Position numbers and translations under genes: made by a program. Positions 17,373 through 59,873 of a DNA stretch of 64,000 nucleotides are shown piece by piece (the stretch's first letter is position 1; every line of letters starts with the position of its first letter). The notes below the pieces were generated by a model that had not been told where the DNA came from, searched no databases, and saw only the letters and a list, made by a program, of their open reading frames with translations. The stretch is from Artocarpus heterophyllus (Eukaryota > Streptophyta > Magnoliopsida > Rosales > Moraceae). The stretch lies in assembly GCA_025403435.1 (NCBI GenBank), contig CM046335.1, forward strand, positions 9,243,187 through 9,307,186, read 5' to 3'.

Positions 17373-17385
17373 GGCTTTGATGCCA
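17373..17385 (-). other. Copia-1 primer-binding site (initiator Met tRNA type)
   Basis: On the minus strand, two bases after the 5' LTR, the sequence TGGCATCAAAGCC differs at two positions from the usual TGGTATCAGAGCC complement of initiator methionine tRNA. Confidence 0.75.
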
Positions 17386-17387
17386 AA

Positions 17388-18909: not shown

Positions 18910-18911
18910 AG

Positions 18912-18924
18912 TGGCATCAGAGCC
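18912..18924 (+). other. Copia-2 primer-binding site (initiator Met tRNA type)
   Basis: TGGCATCAGAGCC starts three bases after the end of the 5' LTR. It differs by one base from the standard initiator-Met complement. The following 18925-20366 is untranslated leader, with a 21-base or longer A-run near 19340 and TGACC-rich repeats around 19830-19880. Confidence 0.8.
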
Positions 18925-21194: not shown

Positions 21195-21221
21195 CGTGCA
21201 AAGAAAGGTACCCTTCTCAAT

Positions 21222-21839
21222 TTGGTTTGTTCTGAGGTTAATTTAACTTCGATACCAAGACACACTTGGTGGATAGATTCTGGTGCTACTACTCACATAA
21301 GTGTGTCTATGCAGGGTTGCCTGAGTTGTCGAAAGCCAAGTGATGGTGAAAGATATATCTATGTGGGCGATGGCAAATCAGTGCAAGTTGAGGCAATAGG
21401 AATATTTAGGTTATTATTAAAGACTGGATTTTATTTGGATTTGAATGAGACTTATGTTGTACCGTCGTTTAGACGGAATTTGATTTCTGTATCTATATTG
21501 GACAAATTTGGTTATTCTTGTTCATTTGGAAATAGTGAATTTAGTCTTTTTCAGAATTCAAAACTTATTGGTTCTGGTTCTTTATCTGTTTATGATAACC
21601 TTTATTTACTTAATACGGTTGCCTCATTTAATGAAACCTTGCATATAAGTACACGTGGTGTAAAGCGAAAATTAACCAATCAGAATTTTGCTTCATTATG
21701 GCACAAGAGATTAGGTCACATCTCAAAGCAGAGAATAGAGAGACTTGTGTCAGACGGGATTCTTGATCCCCTTAATTTTACAGATTTTGAAATTTGTGTT
21801 AATTGCATAAAGGGAAAACAGACAAACATAAAGAGATGA
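21222..21839 (+). pseudogene. Copia-2 protease and pre-integrase region
   Basis: Aspartic protease site WWIDSGATTHIS, then the GAG-pre-integrase domain LWHKRLGHISKQRIERLV with CVNCIKGKQT (intact HHCC zinc site). It ends in TGA (21837-21839). The same frame reads on through HTDICGPFPTASWNG and FITFIDDYTRYGYLY, so this is a point mutation within integrase. Confidence 0.87.
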
Positions 21840-22563
21840 GGTGCCAACAGGGCTTCAGATGTCTTAGAACTAATTCATACAGATATTTGTGGGCCATTCC
21901 CTACAGCTTCTTGGAATGGTCAACAATATTTCATTACGTTCATAGACGATTACACACGATATGGCTACCTATATCTAATTCATGAGAAGTCCCAGTCACT
22001 GGATGTGTTCAAGAATTATAAGGCTGAAGTTGAGAATCAACTCAGCAGAAGGATTAAAAGCGTCAGATCTGACCGTTGTGGAGAATACTATGGTAGATAT
22101 GATGGTTCGGGTGAACAACGTCCATAAAAATTTTGCTAAGTTCCTAGAGGAGTGCGGTATCGTCCTACAGTACGCCATGCCGGGATCACCTAGCATGAAT
22201 GGTGTCGCTGAGAGGCGAAACAGAACACTTAAGGACATGGTGAGGAGTATGATTAGTCACTCTACCTTGCCAGAAATCTCTCTGGGGAGAAGCCTTAAAG
22301 ACTGCAGCTTACATACTCAACAGAGTTCCAACTAAAGCAACTGCCAAAACCCCTTATGAGCTTTGGACATGCAAGAAGCCTAGTTTGAAGCACTTGCACA
22401 TTTGGGGTTGTCCAGCTGAGGCAAGGCCTTATAGGCCAAATGAAAAGAAACTGGACTCCAGAACTGTCAGCTGCTATTTTGTTGGATACTCTGAGAGGTC
22501 AAGGGGTTACAAATTTTATGATCCCACGACTAAGTCGATTTTCGAGACGGGAACTGCTTGATT
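21840..22563 (+). pseudogene. Copia-2 integrase core, broken
   Basis: The core residues are present in pieces: the first Asp in HTDICGPF, the second in VRSDRCGEYYGRYDG, and the Glu in GVAERRNRTLKDMVRS. The frame is interrupted by TAA and a frameshift near 22125 and a second frameshift near 22275. The third frame carries [19 protein letters not shown] and [16 protein letters not shown] further TGA lies near 22559. Confidence 0.85.
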
Positions 22564-22597
22564 CTTTGAGGATGTCGAGTTTACGGGGGGAGATAAA

Positions 22598-23875
22598 GTG
22601 AAGGACTTTGTCTTTGAAGAGGAATACATTAATATTCCCACAGCTGCTATTGACATTGATCAGGTTTCTATCCCTGACATTATTCAAGAAGCAGATCCAA
22701 ATCAAGACAATGTCGAAGAACCTCCCATTCCAGAAATTGCTCTACCACCTCAAGAACCTATGCCATTAAGAAGATCCACTAGAGAAAGGAGAAGTGCGGT
22801 GCCAGATGATTACATTGTATTTCTCCAAGAACATGAGTTTAACATTGGTGTGGTGGAAGATGATTCAATCAACTTCCATCAAGCCATGAAAAGTTCTAAA
22901 TCTCAAGAGTGGATTAATGCCATGAATGAGGAGATAAAGTCCATGAAAGACAATGACGTTTGGGATCTTGTCATGTTGCCTGAAGGTGTGAAACCCATTG
23001 ATTGCAAATGGATATTTAAGACCAAGAGGGATTCAAAAGGCGATGTGGAGAGATATAAAGCTCGTCTTGTTGCAAAGGGTTTTACTCAAAAGGAAGGCAT
23101 TGACTATAAAGAGACTTTCTCTTCGGTTTCTTCGAAAGACTCTTTCAGGACTATAATGGCTTTGGTGGCACATTTTGATCTTGAGCTTCACCAGATGGAT
23201 GTAAAGATTGTGTTTCTCAATGGCGACATTGATGAGACAATTTATATGGTGCAACCAGAAAACTTTGAGTCAAAAGACTCAAAGAAGATGGTTTGCAAAT
23301 TAAAGAAATCCATCTATGGGCTTAAGCAGGCATCTCGTCAATGGTATTACAAATTTCATCAGGTTATTATCTCGTTCGGTTTTGAGATAAATATGGTTGA
23401 TGATTGTATATACCATAAGTTTAGTGGGAGTAAGTATATTTTCCTGGTTTTGTATGTCGATGACATATTGCTTGCCAGCAATGATATAGGCTTATTGCAC
23501 GAAACCAAGAGATTTCTATCAAAGAAATTTGAGATGAAGGATCTTGGTGATGCCTCTTTTGTATTAGGTATACAGATACACCGGGATCGCTCTCGGGGTA
23601 TACTTGGATTATCACAAAAGAGCTATATCGAGAAGATTCTTAAGAGATATAGCATGCAGGATTGTAAACCAGGTGATACCCCTATGGCTAAGGGAGACAA
23701 GTTTAGTCTCAATCGGTGCCCTAAGAATGATTTTGAGGTTAAGGAAATGCAGAAGATTCCTTATGCGTCGGCAGTAGGGAGTCTAATGTATGCTCAAGTT
23801 TGTACGCGTCCGGATATTGCGTACGTTACAGGGATGTTGGGCAGATACTTAAGTAATCCAAGGATAGATCATTAG
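22598..23875 (+). pseudogene. Copia-2 reverse transcriptase
   Basis: A long intact stretch containing the acidic linker, RRSTRERRSAVPDDYIVF, WIFKTKRDSKGDVERYKARL, VAKGFTQKEGIDYKETFS, QMDVKIVFLNG, GLKQASRQWY and the YVDDILLAS active site. It ends with VCTRPDIAYVTGMLGRYLSN. The TAG at 23873-23875 replaces the Trp codon of the (IDH)W(KAAKRVMRYL) segment. It is the same site that is mutated in Copia-1. Confidence 0.9.
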
Positions 23876-24373
23876 AAAGCAGCCAAACGAGTCATGCGGT
23901 ATTTACAAAGAACAAAAAATTACATGCTCACATATAGAAGATCAGATCAGTTGGAGATCATTGGGTATTCAGATTTTGATTTTGCTGGGTGCCAAGACAG
24001 TCGGAGATCCACATCAGGCTATATCTTCCTGCTTGCTGAAGGAGCTATTTCTTGGAAAAGTGCTAAGCAGACACTAATAGCTTATTCCACCATGGCAGCA
24101 GAATTTATAGCATGTTATGAGGCATCTAACCATGGGATATGGTTACGAAATTTTGTCACTGGGCTGCGAATTGTGGATGGAATTGAAAGACCACTTAAGA
24201 TATTTTGTGACAATAAGTCAGCAGTGCTATATTCCAATAACAACAAGAGCTCAACAAAGTCGAAGCATATAGACATTAAGTTCCTTGTTGTTAAAGAAAG
24301 AGTACAGAGTAGTCAGGTGTCTATAGAGCACATTGGGACAAACTCTATGGTTGCGGATCCGCTTACGAAATGA
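23876..24373 (+). pseudogene. Copia-2 RNase H
   Basis: Continues the RT frame after the amber codon. It shows KAAKRVMRYLQRTKNYMLTY, YSDFDFAGCQDSRRSTSGY, MAAEFIACYEA, FCDNKSAVLY and SKHIDIKFLVVKERV. It ends with VADPLTK followed by a TGA where an Arg is usual. The untranslated stretch 24374-24830 leads to the polypurine tract. Confidence 0.88.
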
Positions 24374-24844
24374 GTACCACCTAAGGTCTTTCATGAGCAC
24401 ACTGCTCAAATGGGTGTTGTATTTCTTGAGGATATGTCATTTTAGTGGGAGTTTGCATTTTAGATACTTTCTTGTTGTAGACACATTTTATGGTTATTTT
24501 CTGCAGAAATAAAGTTTATAGTTTATTTTCACTCTGTATATGTTTGATTTGATCTCACTAAAAAATAAGGTTGGACCAATAGGAAATAGGCATGTTAAGA
24601 TCACATTGCATGAAATTTCCTTGCTACACATCCATACTTGATCTATGTCGTTCATTATATTAGTATATATGACCATTGATGAGTTTAGTTACGTAGAATG
24701 TAACGAAAACCGCTTTGATCCTATATTAATATGATTGATGGACCGGATTAATTGGAGATGCTTTTAGTAATGATAGCACAATTCATGAGCTCATAAGGTA
24801 TAATTTACATTTATAAAGTTTCATATATAGCCCAAGTGGGAGAT

Positions 24845-25291
24845 TGTTGGAATTAATTCCAATAATATGTGGGCTAATATATTAAATAAATGTGTATTAT
24901 TGCTATCAAATAAGATTAACCTAATAAAGTGTAAAGATTTGGGTTTTAAAGCATCTCATAAAGTGTGGGTATAAAATTATATGTAGAGACTTAAAGTATA
25001 ATTTCTATTTTTATGATGGGCCAAAATAGAAATAAGGAAAAGTTAAAATATTATAAATGGTTGTGGTTCATGAGTCAGAACGTTACGTGATATTTTCTGG
25101 CATCCCATCACTGGAAAAGACAGAGAGAAAACTTCTTCTCACAGACATCATACTTTCTTGACTTAGAAGATCAAGAACCAAAAATTCAATCGTTCTAATG
25201 GATTCAGGTATGCTTCCGCTATACTTCTTGATGAATTAACACGAGTCTTGGGATATAATGATGGTTTTCATTAGTAAAATTTGTTCCTACA
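24845..25291 (+). repeat. Copia-2 3' LTR
   Basis: Starts TGTTGGAATTAATTCC and ends TTGTTCCTACA. It is preceded at 24831-24844 by the polypurine tract CCCAAGTGGGAGAT, the form typical of this Copia lineage. Confidence 0.92.
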
Positions 25292-25937: not shown

Positions 25938-28171
25938 TCAGTACTCACTCACACCCAAATCAATCCTTTTGTCCATCTTCATACAGTTATGCAAAAACTC
26001 AACCATAAAGCGGATGTCTCTGGAATGTGAATGCAAGTAATCTCCAGCGACAAATATACAAGTAGTGTCACCAACATGCACTAAGCTGTAACCAGCACCA
26101 ACCGTCACTCTCTTTCCTTAACTAACGTTCCCTAATTCGCAGCATCAGCCAGAACCCACCTGCAGCATACACACTCAATGCCAGTAAATAGCCAGTCGAG
26201 TTCAAAGGCTCCAACTTGAGCACACGAGAGGCAGCTTCAAAACCGAGCTTGCTGTTGCTGTAGCTTATACAAGCACTCAAGAGTGCACCCCAGGCATTTG
26301 CTCCAGTCTCTAACCCTTGGGGCATTTTCTTTATGAAGTCCATTGCAGTGTTGAGCTTTCCTCCTGGACTCAACATGTCTACTACGCAGGAATGATTTTC
26401 CAGTCTAGGCTCAACCCCATGATATCGAGTCATCGAGTTGCAGAAGGAGAAGACCCCCTTCAAGTTAGAAGGAGAAGACCCTCTGCAGGCAGATAACACA
26501 GATAGAGTAATCACAGCATTTGGCTTCAGACCATGCCGTTTCATTTTAGCATGCAAAGCCAAGGCTTCTTGTGCAAGACTATTTGTTCCATATGCAGATA
26601 TCATGGTATTCCACGAGACTATGGTTTTCTCAAGAATTTGGTCAAAGGCCCTTCTACAGGCTTCTATCGCCCCGCATTTTGAATACATGTCGATGATTGC
26701 TATTCCAACTGCAACTTCTGCAGCCAATCCCCATCTCATAGCAATGGCATGTGCCCACTTTGACCTCTTCAATTCAGCTAAAACCGAGCACGCCTTGAGA
26801 AGATTTGTGATGGTAACTGCATTAGCTTCTCTGGTGCATGTTGCATCTCTTTAAAGACGGCAATTGCATCATCCGGCCTGCTGCTGTGGGTGAACCCTGC
26901 AATCATAGTGCTCCATGAAACCACGTCCCTTCTCTTGAGCCCGTTAAAAAGTTTCTGCACGTGCTCAAGAAGACTGCACTTTGCATAAGCATCCATTAGA
27001 GAGTTCACTGCCATTTCATTTGATTCGTATCCCCTCCAGATCATTACACTATGGACTGATTTGCATGACAATGGTTCCACAAAATGCTTACACGTTTGAA
27101 GAATATTTACAAGCGATATCTCGTCTGCTCCAATTCCATCCTTCCCCATACGATAAAACAATGATAGAGCCTCCAAATACTTCTCATTGAGGACGAATCT
27201 GGATATTATGGAGTTCCATCATACATATTCCTTCAAGGCATCTCCTTGAAAACTTTAAAAGCAGAATCAGCATCACTGCACTTGGAATACATATCGATTA
27301 AAGAGTTCCCAACAAACGGATCATAATTGAAACCTCTATGTATCACCAACCCATGGACCAATGTCCCCATTGTGGCATCCCCTAAACAAGCACACGCCTT
27401 CAAAACACCAACCATAGTGACTCCATCTGGTTCAGTTCCGACCTCAGAAGACATTTTGAGAAACTCCTGCAAACCAACTTGAGATTTCCCTTCATGCACG
27501 TAACCCCCAATCATCACACTCCAAAAGATGACATCTCTGCCCATCATTTCATCGAACAACTTCCGAGTGCTACCCATGTCGCTGTCCACGTACATGCTCA
27601 ACGACAAGTTTTGAACCGAACGCAGAGCCAAAAACCTGCCGCGGATAACATAACCATGCAATGTTTGTTCCCCTTTCTTTGCTCCAAGAGTACGACATGC
27701 CTGCATAATAAGCACCAAGGTAGAATTATTAGGTTTGAACCCCACAAGCCTAGCCTTTTTAAGCCACCATAATTCCTCCCCTAAATCACCCTGATCAAGA
27801 TACCCATAAGCCATGATGTTCCAAGAAACTGAATCTCTCCTCCTCAAACAACTAAAAACACCCAATGCATCATCAAAGCATCCATATATAGAGTGAAAGT
27901 CCACGGTGGAGTTACTGATGGAAGTGTGTGATTCAAATCCCATTTTGATCAAGCACCCATGTATTGATTTTCCATAGCTGGAGACATTGGAACATGCTTT
28001 TAGAGTAGAAGGTTACGCTGTAGGGTCCACTACTTGAACTCCAGCCCTTTGCATTTCATGAAAATGGTAGGGAACTTCTTGCCATTTCCCACTACTCCGC
28101 AAGTCTTTGAGCCTCAAGTTCCAAGTAAAGAGCTTTTGGCTCAATTGCATTGAGATGGTCGGTAGGCGCAT
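25938..28171 (-). pseudogene. Pentatricopeptide repeat (PPR) gene of At2g17210 type, decayed
   Basis: Intronless PPR gene of the PLS/E subclass, which normally encodes an organelle RNA-binding protein for editing or processing. Homology runs from an ATG at 28171 (MRLPTISMQL, LFTWNLRLKDLRSSGKWQE) to a natural-looking stop at 25938-25940. PPR signatures include CGCFDDALGVFSCLRRRDSV, SWNIMAYGY, IDMYSKC (twice), RRDVVSWSTMIAGF and IVSWNTMISAYG, then an E-type tail with GYLLALSVYAAGG and GYSLVHVGDT. It is broken by an in-frame TAA at 28013-28015, a TGA plus frameshift near 27230, and frameshifts near 26820 and 26130. Most of the protein is still readable, so the loss is not ancient. The At2g17210 assignment is from memory of the N-terminus. 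Confidence 0.85.
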
Positions 28172-28651: not shown

Positions 28652-31600
28652 TCATTCATTGACGTTACACTTTTGAAGGTAAGGGCTATCGAACATAACG
28701 TATTTAGACCAGTATGACTTGTACTTGGAAATGGCAAGATCCAACCATGGTTTGTAGTTTCCATTGTAATGGATGACAGCTGCATTCTCCATCTCCGTTT
28801 GGTTGAGTGCTGGGTCATAGCCAAGTCCCAAGACATGCCAGCCACGATCAAGCGGATGGGTAAGATTGTAAAACGTAATCAGTCCGGGCGGCAAACTGCC
28901 AAGTTTCCAAAGAGTTCTGTCTTCATTCTGCCACAAGCAACAAAGTTTTCGCATCAGTCCCAAATTAAGTAACAAAAACCAAAACAACACTTTATCAAGA
29001 AACTGAACCAAAGAATAGTAGAAATATCTGGTAGCAGTTTGATGTTTTGTTTTTTGTTTTTAAAATTGAAAAGAATGTTAGAGATGCACTTAAATCAACC
29101 GTCATCCGTCCTCCACTTAGCTTTTTGTTTATGAAAACAATGAAAAAGAAATGTTGTTACAAAAAGCCAAATGAAATCTATGCCACAAGAAAACATAGAA
29201 ACTTGTGCTCCTGTGATGGGGACAAAACCCTCAGTAAAATAAAAACCACAAGCAACAAAGAGTTCATTTAAAACAAGACATGTGGGCAATAATAGAAGCA
29301 AAAGACTCGAGAAAGTCACCGCATCTTGCCAACGATGATAAATTCCAGTAATATTTTGCTTCTTCCACTCCTTCAAGTCAAAGATATTCATGCCATATGC
29401 CCAACCGCAGGCATTTGGATCAAAGTTTGCCGAGATCAAAGGATTTGAGAAGTTGAGATACTTATCAAACCTATGGAAGCTCTCCTTACAAGTCTCTACG
29501 GCACCATTCACCATTCCTTGCAGATTGACAGACCAAAGAGGAGTCAAATCCTTTTGCACTACTATATCATCGTCCAAAAACAAGATTTTGTCCAACTTTG
29601 GAAAAACTTCAGGGAGATAAAATCTAAGATGATTTAACATGGACAAATATTTAGGATTTCTATACTTGAGATTGTCAGACCCCAGAGAGAGCGAAGAAGG
29701 ATGATGTGCCTGGAAATAATATTCTTTGAGCTGGGCAGATTCCAGCTGGCGAAGGACAGAACAGTAAGAGGAATTCAGCCACTTAAAGTCATCAATGTTT
29801 TCAACTTGGATGGTTGCTCCTGCGGGAGGGTTGGCTATGAACCACATTTTCATGGCAGCAACATTCAGTTTATCAGTGACAATATGGAAAACATGTTTCT
29901 CAGGCTCCTTCGCATGCAGTATGGTGGAATTGACAACAACTGATGTTGCTAGGACGTTATCTGAAAAGATAGCATAATGGTATAGAGAAGGATCTTCAAG
30001 CTTTTCTTTGTTATCATCCTTTCTGCTCTGATATCCCATAAGGAAAAAGTCTGTTGCGAGCAGCAGAGGAAGGCAATGTAATGGTTTTGGAACTGTTTTT
30101 GCAGCAAGTTGAATCAAGAATGCACTCTTCTTCTTTTGTGCATTTACATTCTCTTCAGTTAACTGAAGCATGGCTCTAAATTTCTTTGTCATTATAGAGC
30201 AGTCATATAATTTGTCCTTTGCCATAGAAAGAATGTGCCCCATTGCTTTTGCTTGCTCAAGTGCCCTGAAAATGTAGGAAACAGAGAAAAATTCTGCATA
30301 AAAGCGAAGGAAAGAACATATGACTTGTTATAAAGACAGAAAATACCTTGGCTGAAGCTCAATATCAGAATTTGCTTCTCCAATAGCACGCTCGCTTTTT
30401 TTGGACTGTGTCAAGAGAGAATCAAAAAGACTACGTTCATTCTTGGACTTGGCAATGTTTGCATACGCTTTTGCCATTATGATCTGGTCTCGCATAAGTT
30501 TCAAAGTGGAATCAGAGTTAGGGTTATCATAGTCTCTCCTCCATATGCTGTATTTTCCCTTAACAGTGGTGTCGAGATTTTTAGAGCGTTCAATTGCTGC
30601 TTCTACCATCTGGTTGTCAGCTTCTTTATCTTGGCTTAGTAGTTCTGCCGTTAGAAGAATTCTCCTTTCTTGTCGCATCTTCTGGGGAACAAGGAATAAA
30701 TTACACTTAATATCCACCACACCAAAAACATATTTTCACAGGGAAAATTAAGCACTACACAGTTCACCTTCCGCTTAAGCTTCACAGGACTCATTGATAA
30801 GAAATTAGGATATTGGATTCCATCTTCTACAGATTGATTCTCATCTTTTTCCTTGAATTCCAAAGATGAGTTCTTCCCTATCTGAATATAAGAAAGAGTC
30901 GAGGAAAATCTTCAGTCAATGTCTGTACACAGAAATAATAACTAGCATAACGATGTCAGTTCCCACAGACAAAACAAACAGAAATATCAGGGCTTGTGAG
31001 GATATATTATGCTTTTTCTTATATATACACACGGTTTACATAACTATGAAAGGATTCAGTTTATCCAAAATTTTTCCTTTTCAGCTCGTCTGAGAAATAC
31101 CTGCAAGCTCTTTGGCTGGACATGGTTCACATCGACAGGGTTTTCCAAGACCCAAGAAGCAGACAGGTCTTTCATTTTCACCCTCCTAAGCTTAACAGCA
31201 CCAGTAGTGTCCGTGTATGTCACTGAAATGTCAATATCCTATATCAAACGAAATAAAATAAGCATTGCTGCTAGATATATGTCCTGCATATAATAAATCC
31301 TCCAAACATGAAATACCATTTGATCTGAAACCGCACCAAGTCCAGTAAAACAAGAAGCATCTTCTTCCTGTGAAACAGCAATGACCCCGCAAACTAAATT
31401 CATGCAGTCATCGTTTCGACAAACAAGAAAAAAATGCACGCATGTGAATTGGTTATAATATACATGTGCACCTTCATGTGGGTGTCTCTCCGTATGTAAT
31501 GTTCATACAAAAGTATAAATATATATGCACGAATATGCATTCATCACTTTAGTCATTATTTTACAGGAAACCTCATTAATTCTGTTTAGCCATTCCCGCT

Positions 31601-34519: not shown

Positions 34520-37387
34520 TTACCTAGCTCTTGGTGCGTGTTGGTGGGCTCGACCTTCATCAACCCTCGGGTGAAGCGGGGAGCGATTGTGCAAATTCTG
34601 CTGATGGCTCTGTCGATGCACAGCCGTGGGGCGAGTGGTACGACTCCTCGGCTCCCTGGGCTTTTCCTCACAAGCTTCAATCTGCTCCAATGTATCGACA
34701 ACCTCTTTCATAGACGGCCGATGCTTGTGTTCAGGTTCTATGCATTTTAGAGCAAGGTGAGCTATATGGAATGCAGCTTTAGACGGATATTTCCCTTCCA
34801 ACCGAGAGTCCATAATGTTTTTCAACTTCCTTTTATCTGACAAGTACGGTTTAATCCAATCAACCAGATTATGTCTCCCACTTGGTCGATTCATATCAAG
34901 CACTCGCAAGCCTGTTAGAATCTCAACCAAGACAATACCAAATCCATAAACATCGCTCTTTACATACAAATGCCCTGTCCAAACAGCACATAACAAACAA
35001 ATATCAGGACCTTTAGCCCGGCCAAGTTAGCCTGTAACAGAACAAAATTTGCAGTTAAACTGTGATTACCAGTGGCAACATATTCAGGGGCGGCATAACC
35101 ATAAGTGCCCATTACTCGAGTGGTCAGATGTGATTGACTAGCTGAAGGACCCATTTTGGCCAAGCCAAAGTCAGAAATCTTGGCGGTGTAAGACTGCACA
35201 TATAAGTAGTAAAAGTTAGATTATGAAGCGTAAAACACAATATCACTACTTTAAACATCTCCGTAGCTGATTAGACCAGAAAATTTACCCCATCAAGTAG
35301 TATATTTGAAGCTTTAAAATCTCTATAAATAACTTGCTTTTCTGATGTGTGCAAGAATGCCAGGCCTCGAGCTGCTCCGATTGAAATTTTAAGCCTCAAG
35401 TCCCACGAAAGCGGCTGAACAACAGAGCCCCCTGTAGAACCCAAAAACTTCAATATATGAGTAACCGAAACTTGTCTTAATTTATTCAAAGTAGGGATAT
35501 AGACAAATCCTTGCATGCAGGGATGGTAATATTGAAACTCAGTAGTGTTTGTTTTGTCCCTTACTTCCAAATAGATGGTTCTCCAAGCTGCCCTTGTGCA
35601 TGAATTCGTATATGAGCAACAGTTCTTTATCTTCCCAACAGTATCCCAACAGCTTAACAAGGTTGGGATGAGAAAGCCGACCTAAGAAATTCACTTCCGA
35701 CTACAACAAGAAATAAATAAGAAATTAGCACATAATCCACAGAATAATGCATACTTTAATGCTCCAAACATCAAAATGCTTACAAATATTGGTAAAAACT
35801 GGAGGGAAAAGATATTGACAGAGAAAATGATGTTCATTGATGAGTTTATCAATGGAACTTAAGTCCTGAATATAAAATCGATTTAATACATTACATGATT
35901 ATAGCTTGCAAAATCATCTTTGTAATAATGCATTGCAAATGTTTTTAATAACTATAAAATCCCATGTGAAGTTACTGAAGAATGCTAACTGAAAAACCAA
36001 CTACCACTCTGCACTTTGGATGAAGCAGCAAGTTGGGCAACTAAATGCCAATTCTAACAAACGTTTAACTAAATCAGGGCTTCCTTTTGAAGACAAAATT
36101 AACTAGAGAGAGAGAGAAAGCATTTCCCCATTACATAAGAGAGACATAATTCAAAAATAAGTGCGATGTTCTATGTTTTTACCTTGCTAAGACCATGACC
36201 TAAACAAAAAGTTAAAACTCATTTTTAGTCCCCCAACCATAGGCCAAAATTCAAACCACATTTTTGTCCCTAACGTTTAAAATATCCTAGAACAATTGCC
36301 TAATCTACCAAACTGTTCAAAATTAGTACTTTTGTCCATCTGACTGCAAAAATCGCAACAGAAGAATACACGATTTTCTTCTTAACAGTGAATTAACATT
36401 TAAAATTACAAAATTAACTCTTAATACCGGTTGTTACATGCCCTTTTTCATCAAGATTTTAACATTAGAATAGACAAACGACTAATTGGAGACGATCAAA
36501 AATTTTTAAAGTCGTGAATCAAAACAGGATTTGAACGGGGACTAGAAATGGCATTAACCCAAAAATAAAGAAGTCTGATATAGAAGACTAGACATAACAA
36601 GTGCAACTGAATGTCTATGAGAGAAATTCAAAGACAGTTAAACTTTTTTATCTCCTCCTTCGAAGGCTCAATTACCTGCCATTCCTCAAATCCTTGCAAG
36701 CTCTCGGAATTCAACTTCTTGACGGCGATAACCGTGCTGCTTCCGCTTTTCCCAGGACCCTTGTCATCAAGCCATCCCTTACAGACTTTTCCAAAACCTC
36801 CCTCACCAAGCACAGTATCGGCTCTAAAGTTTTTGGTGGCAGCCTTCAACTCAGCAAAAGAGAAAATCCTCAAGTTTGGGGTTGGTAGGATCTGCCCATT
36901 TGGGTAATGCTCGTCATAGCTCGCCACAGAGAACCGACTGTTCCCAGATAAGTTGCTTCCCGAGGATATCGTATTACTTGTCGTCTGGGATATCCCTGTT
37001 ATAAATAAAATAACCCACAATTGAAATGAAAAAACTCACTCAAAAACAGTTTCTTTTTTTTTTTTCTTTGTTAATCTTTATCAAGTTCAGAAATTCATGA
37101 AATTCCCACCGTGTGAAGATCAACAAAAAATAAACCATTTCTATAATCTAACCAATCCCATAAACTATGTTAGCAAGTTTCAACTTTCAAGATACAGAAT
37201 TTTGAAAATGAATGCCCAAAAAAGCTGATAACAAGCATGCAATTCAACTAGTAACAGATGAGAAAGCTGATGTAAAAAGGTTGATAAACAAGAAACAAAA
37301 AAAAAAATCAGGTTTACCATTGCTGAGATAACCGGTAGTACTTGGTGTGGTCGGGTTATCAGCTGGAGAACCCCAGCAATTCCCCAT
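34520..37387 (-). CDS. Receptor-like cytoplasmic kinase, RLCK-VII, Kin3/PIX13 (At2g17220) type, 415 aa
   Basis: Membrane-anchored serine/threonine kinase of the PBS1-like group, which relays signals from surface receptors. Six exons: 37318-37387, 36676-36995, 35565-35700, 35289-35431, 35070-35193, 34520-34974, all joining in frame with GT-AG introns. MGNCWGSP carries an N-myristoylation Gly2 and palmitoylation Cys4. The kinase domain has LGEGGFGKV (86-94), the ATP lysine in VIAVKK (Lys116), the catalytic loop IYRDFKASN (Asp213, with Tyr before Arg as usual in this subfamily), DFGLAK (Asp231), GYAAPEY (258-261) and [16 protein letters not shown]. The tail is rich in Arg, His, Gln and Pro. The length matches the Arabidopsis relative (about 414 aa). 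All catalytic residues are present and I see no disabling change. Confidence 0.93.
36190..36560. repeat. Possible dispersed repeat in kinase intron 2
   Basis: The bases CTCATTTTTAGTCCCCCAACCATAGG, TTTTTGTCCCTAACG and TTTGAACGGGGACTAG are of a kind I associate with widely dispersed plant repeats. I could not define ends or a duplication. Introns 1 and 3-5 hold nothing else notable. Confidence 0.25.
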
Positions 37388-50432: not shown

Positions 50433-50618
50433 ACCATCACAGGAAGGCTCCACCTAGTTGTTATCAACTAAGAGTTGGCTTTCTAGTGTACCTGCAATGT
50501 TAGTACTAGAAAAATCCTTTCTTGCAACATTGTCAGCATCAATTAAACAAGGAAAAATATTTTCATTAAAGATGACATATCTACTTACAATGGTTTTAAA
50601 ACCCTTTCCATCTTTAAT
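50433..50618 (-). pseudogene. Copia-3 pol fragment stranded between the two gypsy inserts
   Basis: This 186-bp piece reads on the minus strand as the integrase-RT linker: DGKGFKTIVSRYVIFNENIF, PCLIDADNVARKDFSSTNIA, LESQLLIDNN. It follows the KGYRLWI segment that ends at the other side of the young gypsy element. It confirms that the two inserts hit one Copia copy. Confidence 0.8.
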
Positions 50619-52593
50619 TGTGACACCCGTTATTCTCCTAACGGGTATTGAGGTAATTAAATTAATTTTTAATGTATAAAAAAAAATTGCTTCATTTAAA
50701 TTTATTTTATAATATTTATTTTTATCTATTTTTAAATTTTTTAAAATTCTCCTATATTTATTTAGTATGATTACTAAAAAGCCTTAGAACTTCTAATAAA
50801 TCTCAAAAATGTCATATTGGCATTATGTGTGTTAAAGTCTTTAGATGAGACATAAGGATATCTTTTCCAACTACTCTTGACCCTCATTTTCTTTATTTCC
50901 TCCGTGACATGCTTCAACATGTCTCCTCTATAATTGTTTCTATCACTTCTCTTCAAAGACTTCATCTTTTCTTCCTTTCTCTTCCACGGTTCCCACACTC
51001 TTCTTCTCATTTCTTTGCTAAAGCAAAATACTTAGAGAACTTCTTCAAGGCAGCCATAAAAATCAGCCACCATCACCTCCATTTGAGCAAGAATTTCAGT
51101 CATACCGAAGTAAAGGAACCTGTTTTGAAGCCATTTCAAGCTTCCAACTAACCATAATCCGAGGTTAGAATCTTATGAACAAATTTAGTCTTTCATTTAT
51201 AAATTTTCTTTTATACTAAAGGATTATTCAAATTTGCGTTCTTAAACCTAAGTATATGTTTGTTGCTATTTTGGAGCATATGTATGAAGTCTAAGTGTAT
51301 ATGCCCTAGACAGAAAATTTATATTGTTAAACTTTATAATACCTCTATGGGCAGTGGTTATTTCTTGAAATTCTAAGATTAAATTAAAATAAATTTTATG
51401 AATGTAGTTGTATGTTGTGCTTTAGTTTTAATTGTCCTTATGCACGCCTTAGGATCAAGGGAGTATGGAGCTAACGTTAACTGATTCCAGGATTAAAAGA
51501 TTGTTGATAAGCTTGAAAGGTAGGGATTCTATTACTCATCTTTTGTGAGGTTTTTATAGAATTAAAATTGATTGTTTTGCCGCAATATATATATATATCT
51601 ATGTTGAACTGATATTATATGATTATCACATATGAAACTATGACATGGACTCGTCTTGTATTGTACGGCGAGGAACATAATGAATTGACACATGTTATAA
51701 ATTGAGAAGCATGGTTAGGAAAACTAACTCTATTGATAATGATTCAATATAGAGAAATTGTGAGACATGAAGAGGGCGACGGTTACGTCCTTGGGCATGA
51801 ATACCCTAAAAGGTAAAATAGGGGGAAGGCGATGACGCTTCCTTGGGTTGAAAGTCCCAGAACACACTGTACAGGAATCGATTTGGTGAGGACTCGGGGC
51901 TTGATGTCCCCTCACCGGAACACCCTTGGAATGTTTATAGGGTGATCAAGTGCGCCCATTTGGGTTTCGATGAGTTGAGTGATACTCAATTTAACATGGA
52001 TACCTAGGAACAATGATGATTGGTAATATTTGTATAAATGTGTAATTATGACACTTGGTAATGATTAACTACGGTATCCATAAGATGTGATCATAATAAA
52101 CCTCATAATCTGGAATATGATGTGACTTACTAACCATGCAGATTTTAATGTGGTAATGATAAAAACCTAAAGGTGAGTAATGGCTTTCTCTACTGAGCAT
52201 AGTGTTGCTCATTCCCTTATGTTTATATCTTTTCAGGACTCACTAAGTGTGAGGTGGCTACGAGAAATATAGTTGAGGAAGTGATGTAACTATATTACAT
52301 TGGGACTGCTCAATTGTAAAGAATGTTCTTCATGATAATGTAAGCATCAATTGTTACTTTCTGTGACTGTATTACAATGTGTTGAGGGTTAAAATGATGA
52401 TGACAACAATTTATATTATTAAATTTAAGGTGCTACATTAAAACTGTGGTTTATTTGTCGTTTATATTTTTATTTTTGAGTTGAGAGTTTTCATTTAAGT
52501 CCCGGGCAAATTTTATTTTTAAGGTTTTACTTTTACTATTTATTTTTATTTTATCTCATTAAAAACTGTTAACCCCCATATAGGGGCGTTACA
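50619..52593 (+). repeat. 5' LTR of the LOG-carrying gypsy element
   Basis: 1975 bp. It starts TGTGACACCCGTTATTCTCC, including the palindrome-like ACCCGTTATTCTCCTAACGGGT, and ends CCCCCATATAGGGGCGTTACA with a terminal hairpin. An (AT)n run lies near 51584-51597. It has no meaningful ORF. Confidence 0.93.
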
Positions 52594-52600
52594 GAATTTT

Positions 52601-52613
52601 TGGTATCAGAGCC
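52601..52613 (+). other. Primer-binding site of the LOG-carrying element
   Basis: TGGTATCAGAGCC, an exact complement of the plant initiator Met tRNA 3' end, seven bases after the LTR. The following 52614-53800 is untranslated leader without a convincing ORF. Confidence 0.9.
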
Positions 52614-53833
52614 TAGGTTCGGTTAACCTAGGGAGTGTAGCACCACTTTAAAAAATATATTTTTGAGATGGTTTTGAAGCTGAATTTTCATTGTCATCAT
52701 CAAAATGAACCTTCACATTGATTTATACAGTCTAGAAGGATGTAACATGGAAAGGCCATAGAATGAAAATATTAATAGTTATATGAGTACAATAATTATA
52801 TAGAAGGAAAGTATTAATAGTTATGAGGGAATGATAATTATATGGAATGAGTTTATAAGTAGATTGCTTATGAGAGATTCGTATAATATTTGGATCTATA
52901 AGCATATTTAATTCGTATAAACGATGAGAAATTCGTATAGATACGAGGATTTAAAAGCCTTTTGTCTCGTGAAAAACAATAAGAAATATAAGGCTTGATT
53001 TATTGATTTTAAAGTTTGACATAGATATGCCAAATTTTTCGTAATTGATTCAAACCTAAGTAATGATTATGTGTGGATTCGATGGAGCACATAAGTGTCA
53101 ATAACTTTTCTTGAAAGTTCTATTTATTTGAGGAATATGATATAAGTTGGGAATCATGGTATTGAATCTTGAGAGAGATAAATGTTAGACTTTTGGTCTG
53201 TTGAGACTGTGTAAAGTCTAGAATGCATGAATCTCAAAATTGGAATATTTCGTTACGTACATTGTATTTAAGTGTATCAGTGAATCTTTTGGTTACCTAA
53301 GGTTTTGTTATATGAGGAAATTATATATTGTATAAGTAGAATTGTGGGGATTGTAGATGTTCTTAAGTAGTAACATCAAGTGTCTTTGTTCGTTGATATG
53401 GTCTATGTTGGAAGACGTAAATCGTATTGATTTCAAGGTTAGTCACATTCTAAACCCTTGGTAGCAATGATGATGAATCCATTGATAGATGTTGAGTATT
53501 AGGAATAACATATGGGTGTATGCATTGTTCAATAAGGTTTTGATTAAAACAAAATTATTTGAGTTGCTGGAAGATTGTGTTGTTATGAAATGATTTTAAA
53601 TATCATTCAGGAAGATCCTTGTTGTCGTTAAATTAGATTTGTTGTTTATAGTTAACTTTTTCTATAGTGGACTTTGAATTGGGTTTAAGATTTATACAAA
53701 TTGGTTTTCAATTTTATGTTTGTTATTTAACTCGTTCCAAATGTGTTAAGGCCCGAAACAACCTGACCATTTTCAACTAAGAACATTTGGGCCTAGTTCA
53801 AATCTTAAATCAGTTTGATTCACACTGTCTCTC

Positions 53834-54008
53834 CCACGTGGTCTCTATACGTGTCATATACAGTGGTTTAATTATTGTTTACATATACGTTTACTGTGCG
53901 TATGACCTTATTTCTCCGAGTTCACTTTTTCTCTCTTAATTTGTTATTTTTTCTCTAAATCGCAAATCCTCTTCTTTTTCATTAAAAATTCTTCTTTTCC
54001 TATAAAAG
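53834..54008 (+). promoter_or_regulatory. Internal promoter-like region: G-box and TATA box upstream of the cargo ORF
   Basis: CCACGTGG (G-box, 53834-53841) is followed 160 bp later by TATAAAAG (54001-54008), then a CT-rich leader and the ATG at 54082. That spacing suits a polymerase II promoter with a start near 54033. It lies inside the retrotransposon, separate from the LTR promoter, so it was probably acquired with the cargo. Confidence 0.5.
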
Positions 54009-54081
54009 AAGAAGGAATTCTAGGATTCTGCAATTTACTATCTTAATTTTTCATTTCTATTTACTCTTCTTTCATCTCATC

Positions 54082-54603
54082 ATGGACCCAAAGTACCAAC
54101 ACCTGAGAAAGTATTTCCCATCACTCTCCCAAAAGATTCTCAGAAAGAAATACAAGGCTAGAATTACTCGGTTGTGGATTCTTATGCGTTTTGGTATCCC
54201 TTGTGATGTGAGAATGTTGATAGAGGGGAAAATCCGTCCGAGTGACTTTAGTCAAGATGTCGGTTTACCAGGAACGGGTACCAGTCGTAGTGCAATGAAA
54301 AGAAGAGCTCGTGCCATCGTGGTCACTTGTAACAAATGTGGAAGACAAAATTGTAACGGTAAATGTACTTCACCTGGTTATATGTCTACGAATAGAGAGG
54401 ATAAAATAAGGTTTTGTAGGGATGGACTTTCAAAGGAGAACTTGGATAGCATCCATCCTCCTCTCCACTGTCACCCTAGTGGATATGTTCATGGAGCTAT
54501 TTTTAAACTCTGGCCTAAATTTTATACAGAAAGACAACGCCTCAGGAATATGGTATTTCTAGATCCTGTTTGCCAAGCCATAAGAAAACTGGATGGGGAA
54601 TAA
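54082..54603 (+). CDS. Cys-cluster basic protein of 173 aa, cargo ORF of the gypsy element; possibly of RNA-virus origin
   Basis: Intact intronless ORF of unknown function. It is strongly basic, with an N-terminal region KYKARITRLWILMRFGIP, an Arg/Lys cluster at 73-77 (KRRAR), and directly after it a CX2CX4CX3C cluster (Cys83, 86, 91, 95). The segment after it (KIRFCRDGLS) and the aromatic C-terminal part contain no further recognised domain. A basic run immediately before a short Cys cluster is the layout of the small nucleic-acid-binding proteins of plant flexuous RNA viruses (Betaflexiviridae). I infer a possible endogenised origin, but the match is short and a host zinc-finger or degenerate gag origin is possible. 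The likely role, if any, is RNA or DNA binding. A promoter-like region lies just upstream and the LOG homologue 643 bp downstream. Confidence 0.6.
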   Translation: MDPKYQHLRKYFPSLSQKILRKKYKARITRLWILMRFGIPCDVRMLIEGKIRPSDFSQDVGLPGTGTSRSAMKRRARAIVVTCNKCGRQNCNGKCTSPGYMSTNREDKIRFCRDGLSKENLDSIHPPLHCHPSGYVHGAIFKLWPKFYTERQRLRNMVFLDPVCQAIRKLDGE

Positions 54604-55246
54604 GTCATCGCTCTATAAAGGTTATTTAGTCTTTACTTATTTGAAGCAGTTTTAGCTGATGTTCAACAGTTTGTGTTTTTCTTTTACTCAGAATATTTGC
54701 TTTTGTGTTTGAAATAATTGTGATTATTAGATTGATACAGTAAGTGTTAATATCTTATTTAATTTATGATTTTCTTAAATATATATATAATAAAATATAT
54801 TATCTTATCAGACACGTTACATACGGTACAGTAATATGTTTGAATTTTGAAAAGCTTATCCAGATATTTCAAGATTTGTGTCTCAAATTTCAAAAGTTCT
54901 ACAGTATTTGTTGTTTATATTAAATTTCTAGACTTGGTGTATATTTGTCAAAAAGTCTACAGTTGTGTCATGAGGGTCTTCTGTCGAATTGTTCTCAATT
55001 GTCAAAAGTTATACAATTAGAGTCTAATCTTTTTCAAAAAGTGAATCAGATTTTCTGTAAACTATCAATCACCTTATCTTACTTTCTTATCCGCACAAGA
55101 TTTTGTTTAAATCTTTGGATTACCTTTTCATTACCTACTCGTCTATCTCTTTAGCCCTTTTTGTATATTTCTCATCTTTAAAATCTCATGTAGAACCCGA
55201 AGTCTAAGTGGAGCAGACATTAAGCAACCACTTTTATAAACCAAAT
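54604..55246 (+). other. Spacer between the two cargo ORFs
   Basis: 643 bp, AT-rich, with a TATATATATAATAAAATATAT stretch near 54780-54800 that could serve as a TATA region for the LOG homologue. The segment 54945-55154 contains an ORF of 69 codons with no recognised similarity. No polyadenylation signal could be fixed. Confidence 0.4.
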
Positions 55247-55897
55247 ATGTCTACCTCCCAGTCCACGAAGAAAATAAAGAATGTCTGTGTCTTTTGTGGT
55301 TCCAGCCTTGGAAAAGATAAAGCTTATTTAGAAGCTGCAAATCACTTAGGGCAAGTCCTAGCACACAAGAAGATTAACATAATCTATGGGGGTGGTAGTA
55401 TAAAAATGATGGTAAATATGGCACTAGCAGCTAGGTCTAGCGACGCTACTGATGTAAGAATTTGGCCTCATATTCCAGTTGAAGGAAACCTTTGTAAGGA
55501 AGCCATAGGTAAGGGAGAAGGAGTCAGGAGTATCCCTAAAAATTTTAAAGACATAATCTATAATTCTGATGCTTTTATAGCATTACCTGGTGGTCTAGGT
55601 ACTCTTGAGGAAATATTTATAGTTGCTTGTGGGCAATTGTTGGGCTTTTATTCCAAACCTTTGGGACTGTTGAACGTAAAGGGTTTTTATGACGGTCTTT
55701 TGAAATTTCTAGATTACGCTGTGGAAGAAAACATCACTACAGAATCGGAGAGACAAATCTTTGTCACTGCTTCAACAGCTGAGGAATTGATAGATAAAAT
55801 GCAAATCATACATCCAGAATCCGACACTGCAACATCCAAGCTTGAATGGGAAAGGGAAAGCCGGGAGCGGCCAATTGATTTGAATCTCCATCTGTAA
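55247..55897 (+). CDS. LOG-family phosphoribohydrolase homologue (216 aa), intronless cargo ORF
   Basis: LOG enzymes release free cytokinin bases from cytokinin riboside 5'-monophosphates in the cytosol. The first ATG is at 55247 (MSTSQSTKK). Family motifs: VCVFCGSSLGKDKAYLEAA (13-31), IIYGGGS (45-51), DAFIALPGGLGTLEEIF (108-124, with the PGGxGTxxE signature and Glu121/122), KPLGLLNVKGFYDGLL (137-152) and a C-terminal TSKLEWE. The length is normal. Host LOG genes have several introns; this one has none, which suggests capture through RNA. Two family positions look abnormal: the GLMG after YGGGS is KMMV, and the usually conserved Arg-Lys (MHxRKxxM) is SIPKNFKD at 95-102. The substrate-binding site may therefore be altered or dead. 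Confidence 0.82.
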   Translation: MSTSQSTKKIKNVCVFCGSSLGKDKAYLEAANHLGQVLAHKKINIIYGGGSIKMMVNMALAARSSDATDVRIWPHIPVEGNLCKEAIGKGEGVRSIPKNFKDIIYNSDAFIALPGGLGTLEEIFIVACGQLLGFYSKPLGLLNVKGFYDGLLKFLDYAVEENITTESERQIFVTASTAEELIDKMQIIHPESDTATSKLEWERESRERPIDLNLHL

Positions 55898-56852
55898 TCT
55901 TTTTGTTTTATCTTTGGCATGTAGGCATGTGTGTCCGTATTTCGTGTGTTACGAATAACCGTTTGCCTTGTATTCTGTGTTTCTTGTGGTACGTCGTTGT
56001 TCAATCTTTTAGATTCATTGAGCCTAATGCCGGGATGACTGGATACGGAGTACTTGATGCTCTCGAAACGCATCCTTCTTAAGGTCCGATCTTTTGTTTA
56101 TCGATGTTTTTGTATCCTATAAGCATGCATGATATGGATAGCTGGTATACGGAGTGCCTTGTACTCTCGAAACGTATCCGTATTATGTTTGTAATGTGTA
56201 ATATTCTGTTAATATTATGTGGAAGTACCAGAGTCAGTTATGGGAATATTCCATATGAAATATGAGTATATTATTTGGGTTGAATGTTTGTGTCATGAGG
56301 ATAGCTGTTTAATGAAAAATATGTCGGGTATGTTTGCAACTCTGAGATTCCGTTTAATATCTCTATGAGTAAGTTTAATGTATAGTTTTGAATAAAAGTG
56401 TTTGTGATATATGTTTTATGATTATGTTCTAGTTTATTAGTTGAGGTATGAAATCAAATATATTTGACTTTTCCTTACTCAAAAAGGAAAAGGAACTTAA
56501 AGATGAAGTATATAAAATTTCTCTGGCAATCTCCTTAAATGTGATTGTAAATCACAGTCCATGGACAATGAAGGACTGGAATCATGATATGGTCAATATG
56601 TATGCCTGATCAGATTCTTAGACTATTATACGGTGTTACAAGTTGAAACTTGTCAGAAATACTCTCATTGAGGGATTTAGGAGTAAGATTTATTATGCAA
56701 GTAAATAAGTGGAGATACGATGACTTAAATTTGGAGGACAAACAACATTAACGGTTTAGACTCGGAATTGGAATCATAATGGAATTAAAATTTTTACTAG
56801 TATTGCTAGAATTGAAATTTCGAGGACGAAATTTCTTTAAGGGGGGTAGAGC
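55898..56852 (+). other. 3' untranslated interior of the LOG-carrying element
   Basis: Contains two copies of a diverged repeat, GG(A/T)ATACGGAGT-CTTG-CTCTCGAAACG(C/T)ATCC, at 56041-56075 and 56145-56179. The gypsy-type 3' terminal sequence (ATTTCGAGGACGAAATTTC, 56816-56834) and the polypurine tract follow. No pol remnant is recognisable apart from that terminal stretch. Confidence 0.6.
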
Positions 56853-58827
56853 TGTGACACCCGTTATTCTCCTAACGGGTATTGAGGTAATTAAATTAAT
56901 TTTTAATGTATAAAAAAAAATTGCTTCATTTAAATTTATTTTATAATATTTATTTTTATCTATTTTTAAATTTTTTAAAATTCTCCTATATTTATTTAGT
57001 ATGATTACTAAAAAGCCTTAGAACTTCTAATAAATCTCAAAAATGTCATATTGGCATTATGTGTGTTAAAGTCTTTAGATGAGACATAAGGATATCTTTT
57101 CCAACTACTCTTGACCCTCATTTTCTTTATTTCCTCCGTGACATGCTTCAACATGTCTCCTCTATAATTGTTTCTATCACTTCTCTTCAAAGACTTCATC
57201 TTTTCTTCCTTTCTCTTCCACGGTTCCCACACTCTTCTTCTCATTTCTTTGCTAAAGCAAAATACTTAGAGAACTTCTTCAAGGCAGCCATAAAAATCAG
57301 CCACCATCACCTCCATTTGAGCAAGAATTTCAGTCATACCGAAGTAAAGGAACCTGTTTTGAAGCCATTTCAAGCTTCCAACTAACCATAATCCGAGGTT
57401 AGAATCTTATGAACAAATTTAGTCTTTCATTTATAAATTTTCTTTTATACTAAAGGATTATTCAAATTTGCGTTCTTAAACCTAAGTATATGTTTGTTGC
57501 TATTTTGGAGCATATGTATGAAGTCTAAGTGTATATGCCCTAGACAGAAAATTTATATTGTTAAACTTTATAATACCTCTATGGGCAGTGGTTATTTCTT
57601 GAAATTCTAAGATTAAATTAAAATAAATTTTATGAATGTAGTTGTATGTTGTGCTTTAGTTTTAATTGTCCTTATGCACGCCTTAGGATCAAGGGAGTAT
57701 GGAGCTAACGTTAACTGATTCCAGGATTAAAAGATTGTTGATAAGCTTGAAAGGTAGGGATTCTATTACTCATCTTTTGTGAGGTTTTTATAGAATTAAA
57801 ATTGATTGTTTTGCCGCAATATATATATATATCTATGTTGAACTGATATTATATGATTATCACATATGAAACTATGACATGGACTCGTCTTGTATTGTAC
57901 GGCGAGGAACATAATGAATTGACACATGTTATAAATTGAGAAGCATGGTTAGGAAAACTAACTCTATTGATAATGATTCAATATAGAGAAATTGTGAGAC
58001 ATGAAGAGGGCGACGGTTACGTCCTTGGGCATGAATACCCTAAAAGGTAAAATAGGGGGAAGGCGATGACGCTTCCTTGGGTTGAAAGTCCCAGAACACA
58101 CTGTACAGGAATCGATTTGGTGAGGACTCGGGGCTTGATGTCCCCTCACCGGAACACCCTTGGAATGTTTATAGGGTGATCAAGTGCGCCCATTTGGGTT
58201 TCGATGAGTTGAGTGATACTCAATTTAACATGGATACCTAGGAACAATGATGATTGGTAATATTTGTATAAATGTGTAATTATGACACTTGGTAATGATT
58301 AACTACGGTATCCATAAGATGTGATCATAATAAACCTCATAATCTGGAATATGATGTGACTTACTAACCATGCAGATTTTAATGTGGTAATGATAAAAAC
58401 CTAAAGGTGAGTAATGGCTTTCTCTACTGAGCATAGTGTTGCTCATTCCCTTATGTTTATATCTTTTCAGGACTCACTAAGTGTGAGGTGGCTACGAGAA
58501 ATATAGTTGAGGAAGTGATGTAACTATATTACATTGGGACTGCTCAATTGTAAAGAATGTTCTTCATGATAATGTAAGCATCAATTGTTACTTTCTGTGA
58601 CTGTATTACAATGTGTTGAGGGTTAAAATGATGATGACAACAATTTATATTATTAAATTTAAGGTGCTACATTAAAACTGTGGTTTATTTGTCGTTTATA
58701 TTTTTATTTTTGAGTTGAGAGTTTTCATTTAAGTCCCGGGCAAATTTTATTTTTAAGGTTTTACTTTTACTATTTATTTTTATTTTATCTCATTAAAAAC
58801 TGTTAACCCCCATATAGGGGCGTTACA
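56853..58827 (+). repeat. 3' LTR of the LOG-carrying gypsy element
   Basis: 1975 bp, same length and, in all stretches compared, same sequence as the 5' LTR. It is preceded by the purine tract AAGGGGGGTAGAGC (56839-56852). Confidence 0.93.
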
Positions 58828-58856
58828 TTAATCCACAATCTATATCCTTTAGTACA

Positions 58857-59873
58857 TTAAGGGTAACCTAAGAAAACACATTTAATAGATCTAGGGTCTA
58901 ATTTTCCCTCAGATTGATGAGCATAAGCTACACACCTAAAAGGCCTTAGGTGACTTAGATCATGAGGTTTTTCTATCCATTTTTCCCCAGGAGTCTTAAA
59001 GTCAATAGCACTAGAAGGGCTTCTATTAACCAAATAAGTAGTAGTCATAACTACTTCTCCCCAAAAACTTTTAGGTAAACCAGCCCCAAGCAACATACAT
59101 CTAGATTTATTCATTAGGGTTCTATTCATACGCTCAACAACCCCATTTTGTTGTGGGGTTTTCCTCATAGTCCTATGCCTTTGGATTCCATTTTCTTTAC
59201 AATAATTGTTAAAGAGTTCATTACAGAACTCTAGACCACTTTTAGTTCTAAGGGTTTTTAATTTCTTTTCTGCCATATTTTCTATAAGGACTCTCCACTA
59301 TCTAAACCTATTAATGGCATCATTTTTATTTTTAAGCAAGTAGCCCCAGACTTTTCTAGAAAAATCATCAATAATAGACAGAAAATAAGAGTTTCCTCCA
59401 TGTCTTGATACCCTTTCTAGACCCCACAAATTAGAGTGTACATACTCCAATATGGCCTTGGACTCATGCTTTGCAGCCTTGAACTTTAGCTTATGTTGCT
59501 TTCCAGGAATGCAATACTCACAAAAATCTACCTTATTGATCTTCCCTTTGCCAAGCAACTTTTGTTCTTACATAACTTGCATTGCCTTGTCACTTATATG
59601 ACCAAGCCTTCGATGCCATAACACTGCTTAAGTGTCTTCAGGTGCCGTTACCACAGTTGTTTTCTCAGTGAGTGTTTTTGCTGCCATATGATATAAACCA
59701 TCCTTTTTCAAGCCTTTCATTACCACTAAAGAGCTCTTTAGGACCTTTATTTTTCCACCTTCAGTTTTGATGAGATAACCAGCATCATCAAGCATTCCAA
59801 GGGAAACCAGATTCCTTGTGAGATTAGGAACATATCTCACATTCTTGAGATGCCTGATTATACAGTCAAACAT
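58857..59873 (-). pseudogene. Copia-3 integrase region, broken
   Basis: Pieces in several frames: VRYVPNLTRNLVSLGMLDDA (59873-59628), FCEYCIPGKQHKLKF with FLSIIDDFSRKVWGYLLKNK (59558-59298), then LRTKSGLEFCNELFNNYC, TPQQNGVVERMNRTLM and FLGYP (59276-58857). The first catalytic Asp appears changed to Asn (VHSNLWG). The segment 58833-58856 continues as KGYRLWI up to the gypsy insertion. Confidence 0.87.

Follow-up and report, generated by a model that had tools for sequence, protein, structure and literature searches.

What does a long terminal repeat (LTR) retrotransposon carry when gag-pol is missing from its interior, and do the genes found there serve the element? This question is raised by the element at positions 50619-58827 of a 64,000-nucleotide stretch of the Artocarpus heterophyllus genome (assembly GCA_025403435.1, contig CM046335.1, positions 9,243,187 to 9,307,186 of the forward strand), hereafter called the window. 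A first-pass annotation, made from the letters of the sequence, had described it as a very young LTR element, putatively of gypsy type, spreading a hormone-metabolism gene, namely a homologue of the cytokinin-activating enzyme LOG. Our analysis demonstrates that the element belongs to a young, multicopy, recently active, non-autonomous family with two conserved accessory genes, one encoding a LOG-fold protein and the other a protein of a type better known from plant viruses.

The element is a complete LTR retrotransposon, with TG...CA ends and with direct LTRs, a primer-binding site, a polypurine tract and a 5-bp target-site duplication, the last four of which had been proposed previously and were confirmed on the sequence. 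Its two LTRs are identical at 1975 of 1975 positions (0 mismatches between 50619-52593 and 56853-58827). The structure is as follows, where ORF denotes open reading frame:

50614..50618, no strand: target-site duplication TTAAT, left copy, from sequence comparison of the element ends
50619..52593, plus strand: 5' LTR, 1975 bp, TG...CA ends, identical to the 3' LTR
52594..54081, plus strand: non-coding leader, 1488 nt, between the 5' LTR and ORF1
52601..52613, plus strand: primer-binding site TGGTATCAGAGCC, 7 nt past the 5' LTR, 24-nt context the same in 14 of 15 copies
54082..54603, plus strand: ORF1, 173 aa, uninterrupted, with a basic KRRA stretch and C-x2-C-x4-C-x3-C, of the carlavirus/vitivirus nucleic-acid-binding-protein type judging by the Pfam matches of its relatives
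54604..55246, plus strand: spacer between the ORFs, 1.17% divergence between copies
55247..55897, plus strand: LOG-fold ORF, 216 aa, uninterrupted, PGGxGTxxE retained, IPKNF in place of MHxRK (Pfam, fold)
55898..56852, plus strand: non-coding tail between the LOG ORF and the 3' LTR
56839-56846, plus strand: polypurine tract AAGGGGGG, within the non-coding tail, before the 3' LTR
56853..58827, plus strand: 3' LTR, 1975 bp, identical to the 5' LTR
58828..58832, no strand: target-site duplication TTAAT, right copy, from the same comparison of ends

The 4259-bp interior (52594-56852) contains two intronless, uninterrupted ORFs and no intact gag-pol, in agreement with the first-pass annotation. Beyond these ORFs, a stop-to-stop scan revealed no long gag or pol frame, the longest other plus-strand frame inside the interior having 76 aa and the longest other frame wholly inside it (127 aa) lying on the minus strand, partly opposite LOG; worn remnants of gag or pol may yet be present, the Pfam scan having covered the two ORFs and an 80-aa frame of the LTR. 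The LOG frame extends open upstream as far as 55208. We take the primer-binding site to be of the initiator-tRNA-Met type; the sole copy with a differing context (L043) has its change just after the site. When the interior is divided into 150-nt bins, divergence is lowest in the first 150 nt of the leader (0.57% pairwise), which constitute a candidate packaging region. An internal promoter of ORF1 was also considered and dropped, as TATAAAA occurs about 80 nt upstream in just 4 of the 15 copies. Short inverted repeats are visible by eye in both LTR ends, at 50626-50645 (CCCGTTA...TAACGGG) and 52574-52586 (CCCCATATAGGGG).

Genome searches were performed in the source assembly (985 Mb, 334 contigs). 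Among the best 40 of 1,096 LTR candidates, we found 15 pairs with a spacing of about 6.2 kb, including that of the window, and 10 single matches. The shared spacing shows that the structure is no chance arrangement. The 40 scored candidates are those nearest to the LTR of the window, and older or divergent members are therefore under-sampled. The interior is the same in all 14 further complete copies, although about 30 nt of leader are missing in five of them, and 13 are flanked by matching target-site duplications of their own, the remaining copy having an end that reads N. Seven of the single matches have a locus: three are solo LTRs (L014, L015 and L030) and four match the interior partly. 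The dispersed copies, with their own duplications and the accompanying solo LTRs, were thus made by retrotransposition, and the window does not hold a unique copy whose relatives carry gag-pol instead. Separately, an inverted LTR fragment of 91% identity (L024:3824-4395) adjoins a young copy and is perhaps a trace of an older generation of the family.

The description of the element as very young was also borne out. Within the LTR pairs of the 14 further copies we counted no substitution in seven, one in five and four in two (one pair being compared over 1333 bp only); once the window is included, this adds up to 13 substitutions over about 28.9 kb of LTR compared. Assuming 1.3e-8 substitutions per site and year, we obtain a mean age near 17,000 years for the 15 pairs. 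The interiors of the copies diverge from one another by 1.3-2.3% and their 3' LTRs by 0.3-1.9%, in a star-like manner, which suggests that many source lineages have been active rather than one. Searches with the two proteins again pointed to many open copies: the best 150 of 6,117 LOG candidates are all open and agree with the window at every one of 216 aa, and the best 150 of 5,818 ORF1 candidates are all open and 98-100% identical to it, 142 of them having one same score and all of these lying on contigs C1-C9. As best matches, these loci give a lower bound for copy number and no estimate of constraint.

Constraint was therefore assessed in a different sample, comprising the 15 LTR-chosen copies and 20 LOG stretches located beside ORF1 matches (20 of the 150) and taken irrespective of LOG; one of the latter (L052) extended past the end of its stretch and was excluded, leaving 19 complete ORF1-sampled LOG copies and 34 LOG copies in all. 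In the LTR-sampled set LOG is open in 15/15 copies and ORF1 in 14/15 (L040 is frameshifted), in line with the multicopy family with open cargo that had been considered earlier. From the non-coding rates about 4.8 stops and frame breaks would be expected in LOG over the 15 copies, versus 0 seen, and about 4.2 in ORF1, versus 1 seen. The non-coding interior has 20 gap intervals, 17 of them not multiples of three, while LOG has none and ORF1 one. Pairwise pN/pS is 0.214 for ORF1 (14 copies) and 0.419, 0.319 and 0.360 for LOG (15, 19 and 34 copies, respectively), and variable sites are distributed over the three codon positions as 9/7/22 in ORF1 and 9/9/13 in LOG. With each variant counted once, ORF1 has 19 synonymous and 19 nonsynonymous changes (14 copies, p=0.004 versus random). 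Nonsynonymous change is depleted among the variants shared between copies, both in ORF1 (9 synonymous to 5 nonsynonymous, p=0.006, 14 copies) and in LOG (10 to 9, p=0.026, 34 copies), whereas singletons are as random in LOG (14 to 32) and show no significant depletion in ORF1 (10 to 14, p=0.12). These data argue that inserted copies drift while the source lineages are constrained, strongly in the case of ORF1 and moderately in that of LOG. The suggestion that the cargo may be under selection is thus supported, in that some purifying selection is seen on the shared variants of both ORFs; the test on all LOG variants, given below, does not reach significance. Mean pairwise divergence is 2.3% in the leader, 1.7% in ORF1, 1.2% in the spacer, 0.9% in LOG and 2.1% in the tail; the spacer (54604-55246, 1.17%) is about as conserved as the ORFs, compared with 2.1-2.3% in the leader and tail.

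The assignment of the second ORF to the LOG family and fold is secure, as it matches PF03641 (E 9e-22, Pfam), structure 2a33 both by sequence and by fold, and, as a model, AtLOG3 (Foldseek E 9e-19). In PMC4979012, Arg99 and Glu122 are proposed as the catalytic residues of CgLOG, the prenyl site is lined by Met96, His97, Lys100, Glu125 and Trp129, and alanine substitution of key residues other than Ser19 is reported to have nearly abolished activity. In the protein of the element the glutamate motif PGGxGTxxE is retained (33/34 copies) and the arginine motif is lost: MHxRK reads IPKNF, with Asn in place of the catalytic Arg in all 34 copies read, and the equivalents of Met96, His97, Lys100 and Trp129 are altered as well. 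The arginine is kept in all eight LOG relatives picked for comparison and in most rows of a wider list, some of which (e.g. P0056, P0100, P0103 and P0113) likewise lack it. In a tree the ORF forms a long branch (1.39), and apart from P0015, its near-copy, none of its neighbours is a nearest relative with support. The protein would thus appear to be a pseudoenzyme, and because the catalytic arginine is absent from every copy read, cytokinin activation by it is unlikely; the idea of an element spreading a hormone-metabolism gene was not supported by this comparison.

The hormone-gene story is weakened, and the other gene, which is of virus type, is the more surprising part of the cargo. First labelled a 'zinc-cluster' ORF, ORF1 is better described as encoding a plant-virus-type nucleic-acid-binding protein. 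The basic stretch and the C-x2-C-x4-C-x3-C motif are invariant or almost so across the 15 aligned rows; at E<=0.01, Carla_C4 matches occur in 12 of these and Viral_NABP matches in 11. A profile search retrieved 849 proteins at E<=0.01; the 120 of these that are listed carry the Carla_C4 label, their named hosts include Xanthoceras, Populus, Acer, Hibiscus, Rhamnella and Orobanche, and several have tens to hundreds of near-identical members. Eight of ten further relatives picked pass at least one Pfam cut-off (Viral_NABP or Carla_C4), over up to about 90 residues; P0232 and P0242 fall under both. Sequence searches of PDB with ORF1 gave nothing better than E 0.19 (single) and 0.24 (profile), and three scans of viral contigs for the ORF1 kin (A1, P0007) and the LOG kin (P0020) yielded no relative. 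Because its relatives match Viral_NABP and Carla_C4, ORF1 may be regarded as a distant relative of the carlavirus/vitivirus nucleic-acid-binding proteins within a large plant family, the match spanning a short basic zinc-binding region that does not in itself prove shared descent. The cysteine-rich proteins of plant viruses can act in silencing suppression or virulence.

Taking these features together, we consider it fairly probable that this is a non-autonomous LTR family mobilised in trans, in which ORF1 aids the element RNA alongside a LOG-fold pseudoenzyme and the source lineages are under selection. As the element has no pol, its RNA would depend on gag-pol proteins encoded by a different LTR element for packaging, reverse transcription and integration. 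The ORF1 product, a basic zinc-finger protein of virus type, would aid this RNA; its likeliest role would be to counteract RNA silencing by the host, and it may also serve as an RNA chaperone. The LOG-fold protein may bind a nucleotide or a partner protein rather than activate cytokinin. Copies would drift near-neutrally after insertion, while selection on both proteins would keep open those lineages that seed new copies. Both genes look preserved by selection, and both proteins therefore probably help the element.

A number of observations weigh against this explanation. No partner sharing the LTR, as had been envisaged for an autonomous relative, was found among 1.2-kb downstream pieces from one member each of three integrase-bearing families. 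These families come from an integrase (H2C2) search of the genome; among its best 150 of 14,859 candidates are numerous copies whose frames stay open for 1570, 1522/1523 or 1578 aa. The pieces (from the families of 1570, 1522 and 1578 aa), in which the 3' LTR is expected, gave short, mostly AT-rich matches to the element (best E 1.6e-5), the third containing just the last part of its LTR. One guessed LTR-junction pattern yielded 10 chance-like sites, with no clean junction of polypurine tract and LTR from another family, and its reversed control none. The ORF1 of the window itself is below the Pfam cut-offs (Viral_NABP 16.3 versus 23 bits, Carla_C4 13.1 versus 20.9), and its fold model is weak (pLDDT 64); compared with a viral fold library, the model gave 11 weak matches, none at E<=0.001, among which a vitivirus RNA-binding protein ranked second (E 1.3) and a grapevine-virus silencing suppressor ninth (E 7.9), ranks that we do not use as proof. 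As regards LOG, one of the 19 complete ORF1-sampled copies (L065) has a stop, and the exact protein of the window occurs in 0/19 ORF1-sampled and 2/14 LTR-sampled copies. Variants counted once are 24 synonymous to 40 nonsynonymous (34 copies, p=0.09 versus random), the difference between shared variants and singletons is non-significant (Fisher p 0.16 for LOG, 0.31 for ORF1), and the low divergence of LOG alone proves nothing, because that of the non-coding spacer is low too. Moreover, according to PMC11593424, activity can vary among LOG proteins whose key residues are identical, and residues are thus an imperfect guide.

The same observations bear on three other explanations. LOG and another gene might have been swept in once and copied by a burst, remaining intact merely through the youth of the copies. 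The near identity of the LTR pairs, the neutral look of the singletons and the lack of a significant difference between them and the shared variants, the LOG stop and the all-variant LOG test all speak for such passive cargo, which we nevertheless hold to be unlikely: the interiors differ by 1.3-2.3% in a star-like manner, yet the LOG frame is broken in 0/15 copies, nonsynonymous change is depleted among the shared variants of both ORFs, and relatives of ORF1 are conserved in the six genera named for them above. It would be more improbable still that the LOG protein functions as an enzyme, activating cytokinin or cleaving some other nucleotide, and that it promotes cell division at the sites of element activity. 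Such a role would be in keeping with the retained fold and glutamate motif, and the arginine is present in the eight chosen relatives; against it stand the loss of the equivalent of CgLOG Arg99, a residue whose catalytic role is proposed in PMC4979012, the changes at four further pocket positions and the long branch, and the arginine loss is not unique to this element.

We give an equally low probability to a two-part system, in which a dedicated gag-pol sister with similar termini relies on the proteins of this element and both are required for spread. Conservation of both ORFs in the absence of gag-pol is compatible with such a system, as is the position of the least divergent 150-nt bin directly after the 5' LTR, but neither the three integrase-family pieces nor the one junction pattern disclosed a gag-pol element sharing this LTR. 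Mobilisation in trans of a family with two constrained accessory genes is the account that we prefer.

To the right of the element, at a distance of about 25 bp, a degenerate copia integrase/SH3 coding sequence (58857-59558, minus strand) breaks off, and its SH3 profile is cut at 42 of 73, because of which we think it probable that a copia copy was the insertion site of the element; when the flanks are joined as an empty site, the longest open run across the join is 62 aa, which says little because the copia copy is degenerate there. Elsewhere in the window, two Ty1/copia elements with integrase and RVT_2 (Pfam) adjoin in opposite orientation (11157-17813 and 18455-25289, LTR-like repeats 97.7% and 93.0%). 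Pieces of host genes (Pfam) encode a PPR protein (27236-27952), a glycosyltransferase of family 8 (29098-30243) and a protein kinase fragment (34523-34996), all on the minus strand.

The usual view of non-autonomous LTR elements is that of silent passengers. That a multicopy family without gag-pol should retain two accessory proteins, of which one is of plant-virus type, suggests that elements of this sort can compete through host-directed functions, and this family offers a ready system to test whether transposons borrow viral counter-defence genes. Populus has kin of LOG as well as of ORF1, and so does Xanthoceras, where P0016 and P0143 lead to one 21,981,555-base contig. For P0067 (LOG kin) and P0147 (ORF1 kin), too, the longest contig listed has one and the same length, 8,723 bases. 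This suggests, although it does not prove, that the two genes move as a pair in other plants. Tentatively, and with more doubt than confidence, one may imagine a eudicot-wide LTR lineage that swapped gag-pol for a two-gene module, composed of an RNA-virus-type silencing suppressor and a LOG-fold pseudoenzyme, and that parasitises other retroelements but provides anti-silencing proteins of its own; such a lineage would attest that positive-strand RNA viruses and retroelements have exchanged genes.

Elements without pol are well known. LARDs and TRIMs lack coding capacity and TR-GAGs code for gag. The family described here resembles all three in its intact LTRs, primer-binding site, polypurine tract, absence of pol and young copies. 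It differs from LARDs and TRIMs in coding for two conserved proteins, and from TR-GAGs in that these are other proteins: gag was not detected in the two ORFs by Pfam, and no other plus-strand frame in the interior exceeds 76 aa. LTR elements that bear LOG domains are already known as well, YgdH/LOG domains having been reported from Citrus and, with a looser filter, Populus, in PMC9289625, which cites Steinbauerova 2011. A LOG-family domain carried by an LTR element is common to both cases. The screen in question used reverse transcriptase as its marker; its elements therefore have pol, and an element without pol would go unseen. The present element, by contrast, lacks pol, carries an ORF1 of virus type and has a rewritten LOG pocket. 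The same source describes orchid Ty3/gypsy elements with an AlkB-type domain, whose protein is reported to bind RNA and to be active in vitro (PMC9289625); these, too, are retroelements with an accessory ORF, but of the 25-kb gypsy type, found via reverse transcriptase, with a single accessory gene of demonstrated activity. Judging by titles and the beginnings of abstracts, we found no report of a carlavirus-type protein in an LTR element, nor did LOG paired with a virus-type protein in an element without gag-pol turn up. The cysteine-rich proteins of carlaviruses and vitiviruses share with the ORF1 family the basic stretch, the four-Cys motif and, in ORF1 relatives, the Pfam matches to Viral_NABP and Carla_C4, whereas the ORF1 family is encoded in plant DNA, is often multicopy and has further conserved N- and C-terminal parts. 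In its proposed role, the accessory ORF finally resembles VANC, the anti-silencing accessory protein of the plant VANDAL elements, although VANDAL is a DNA transposon.

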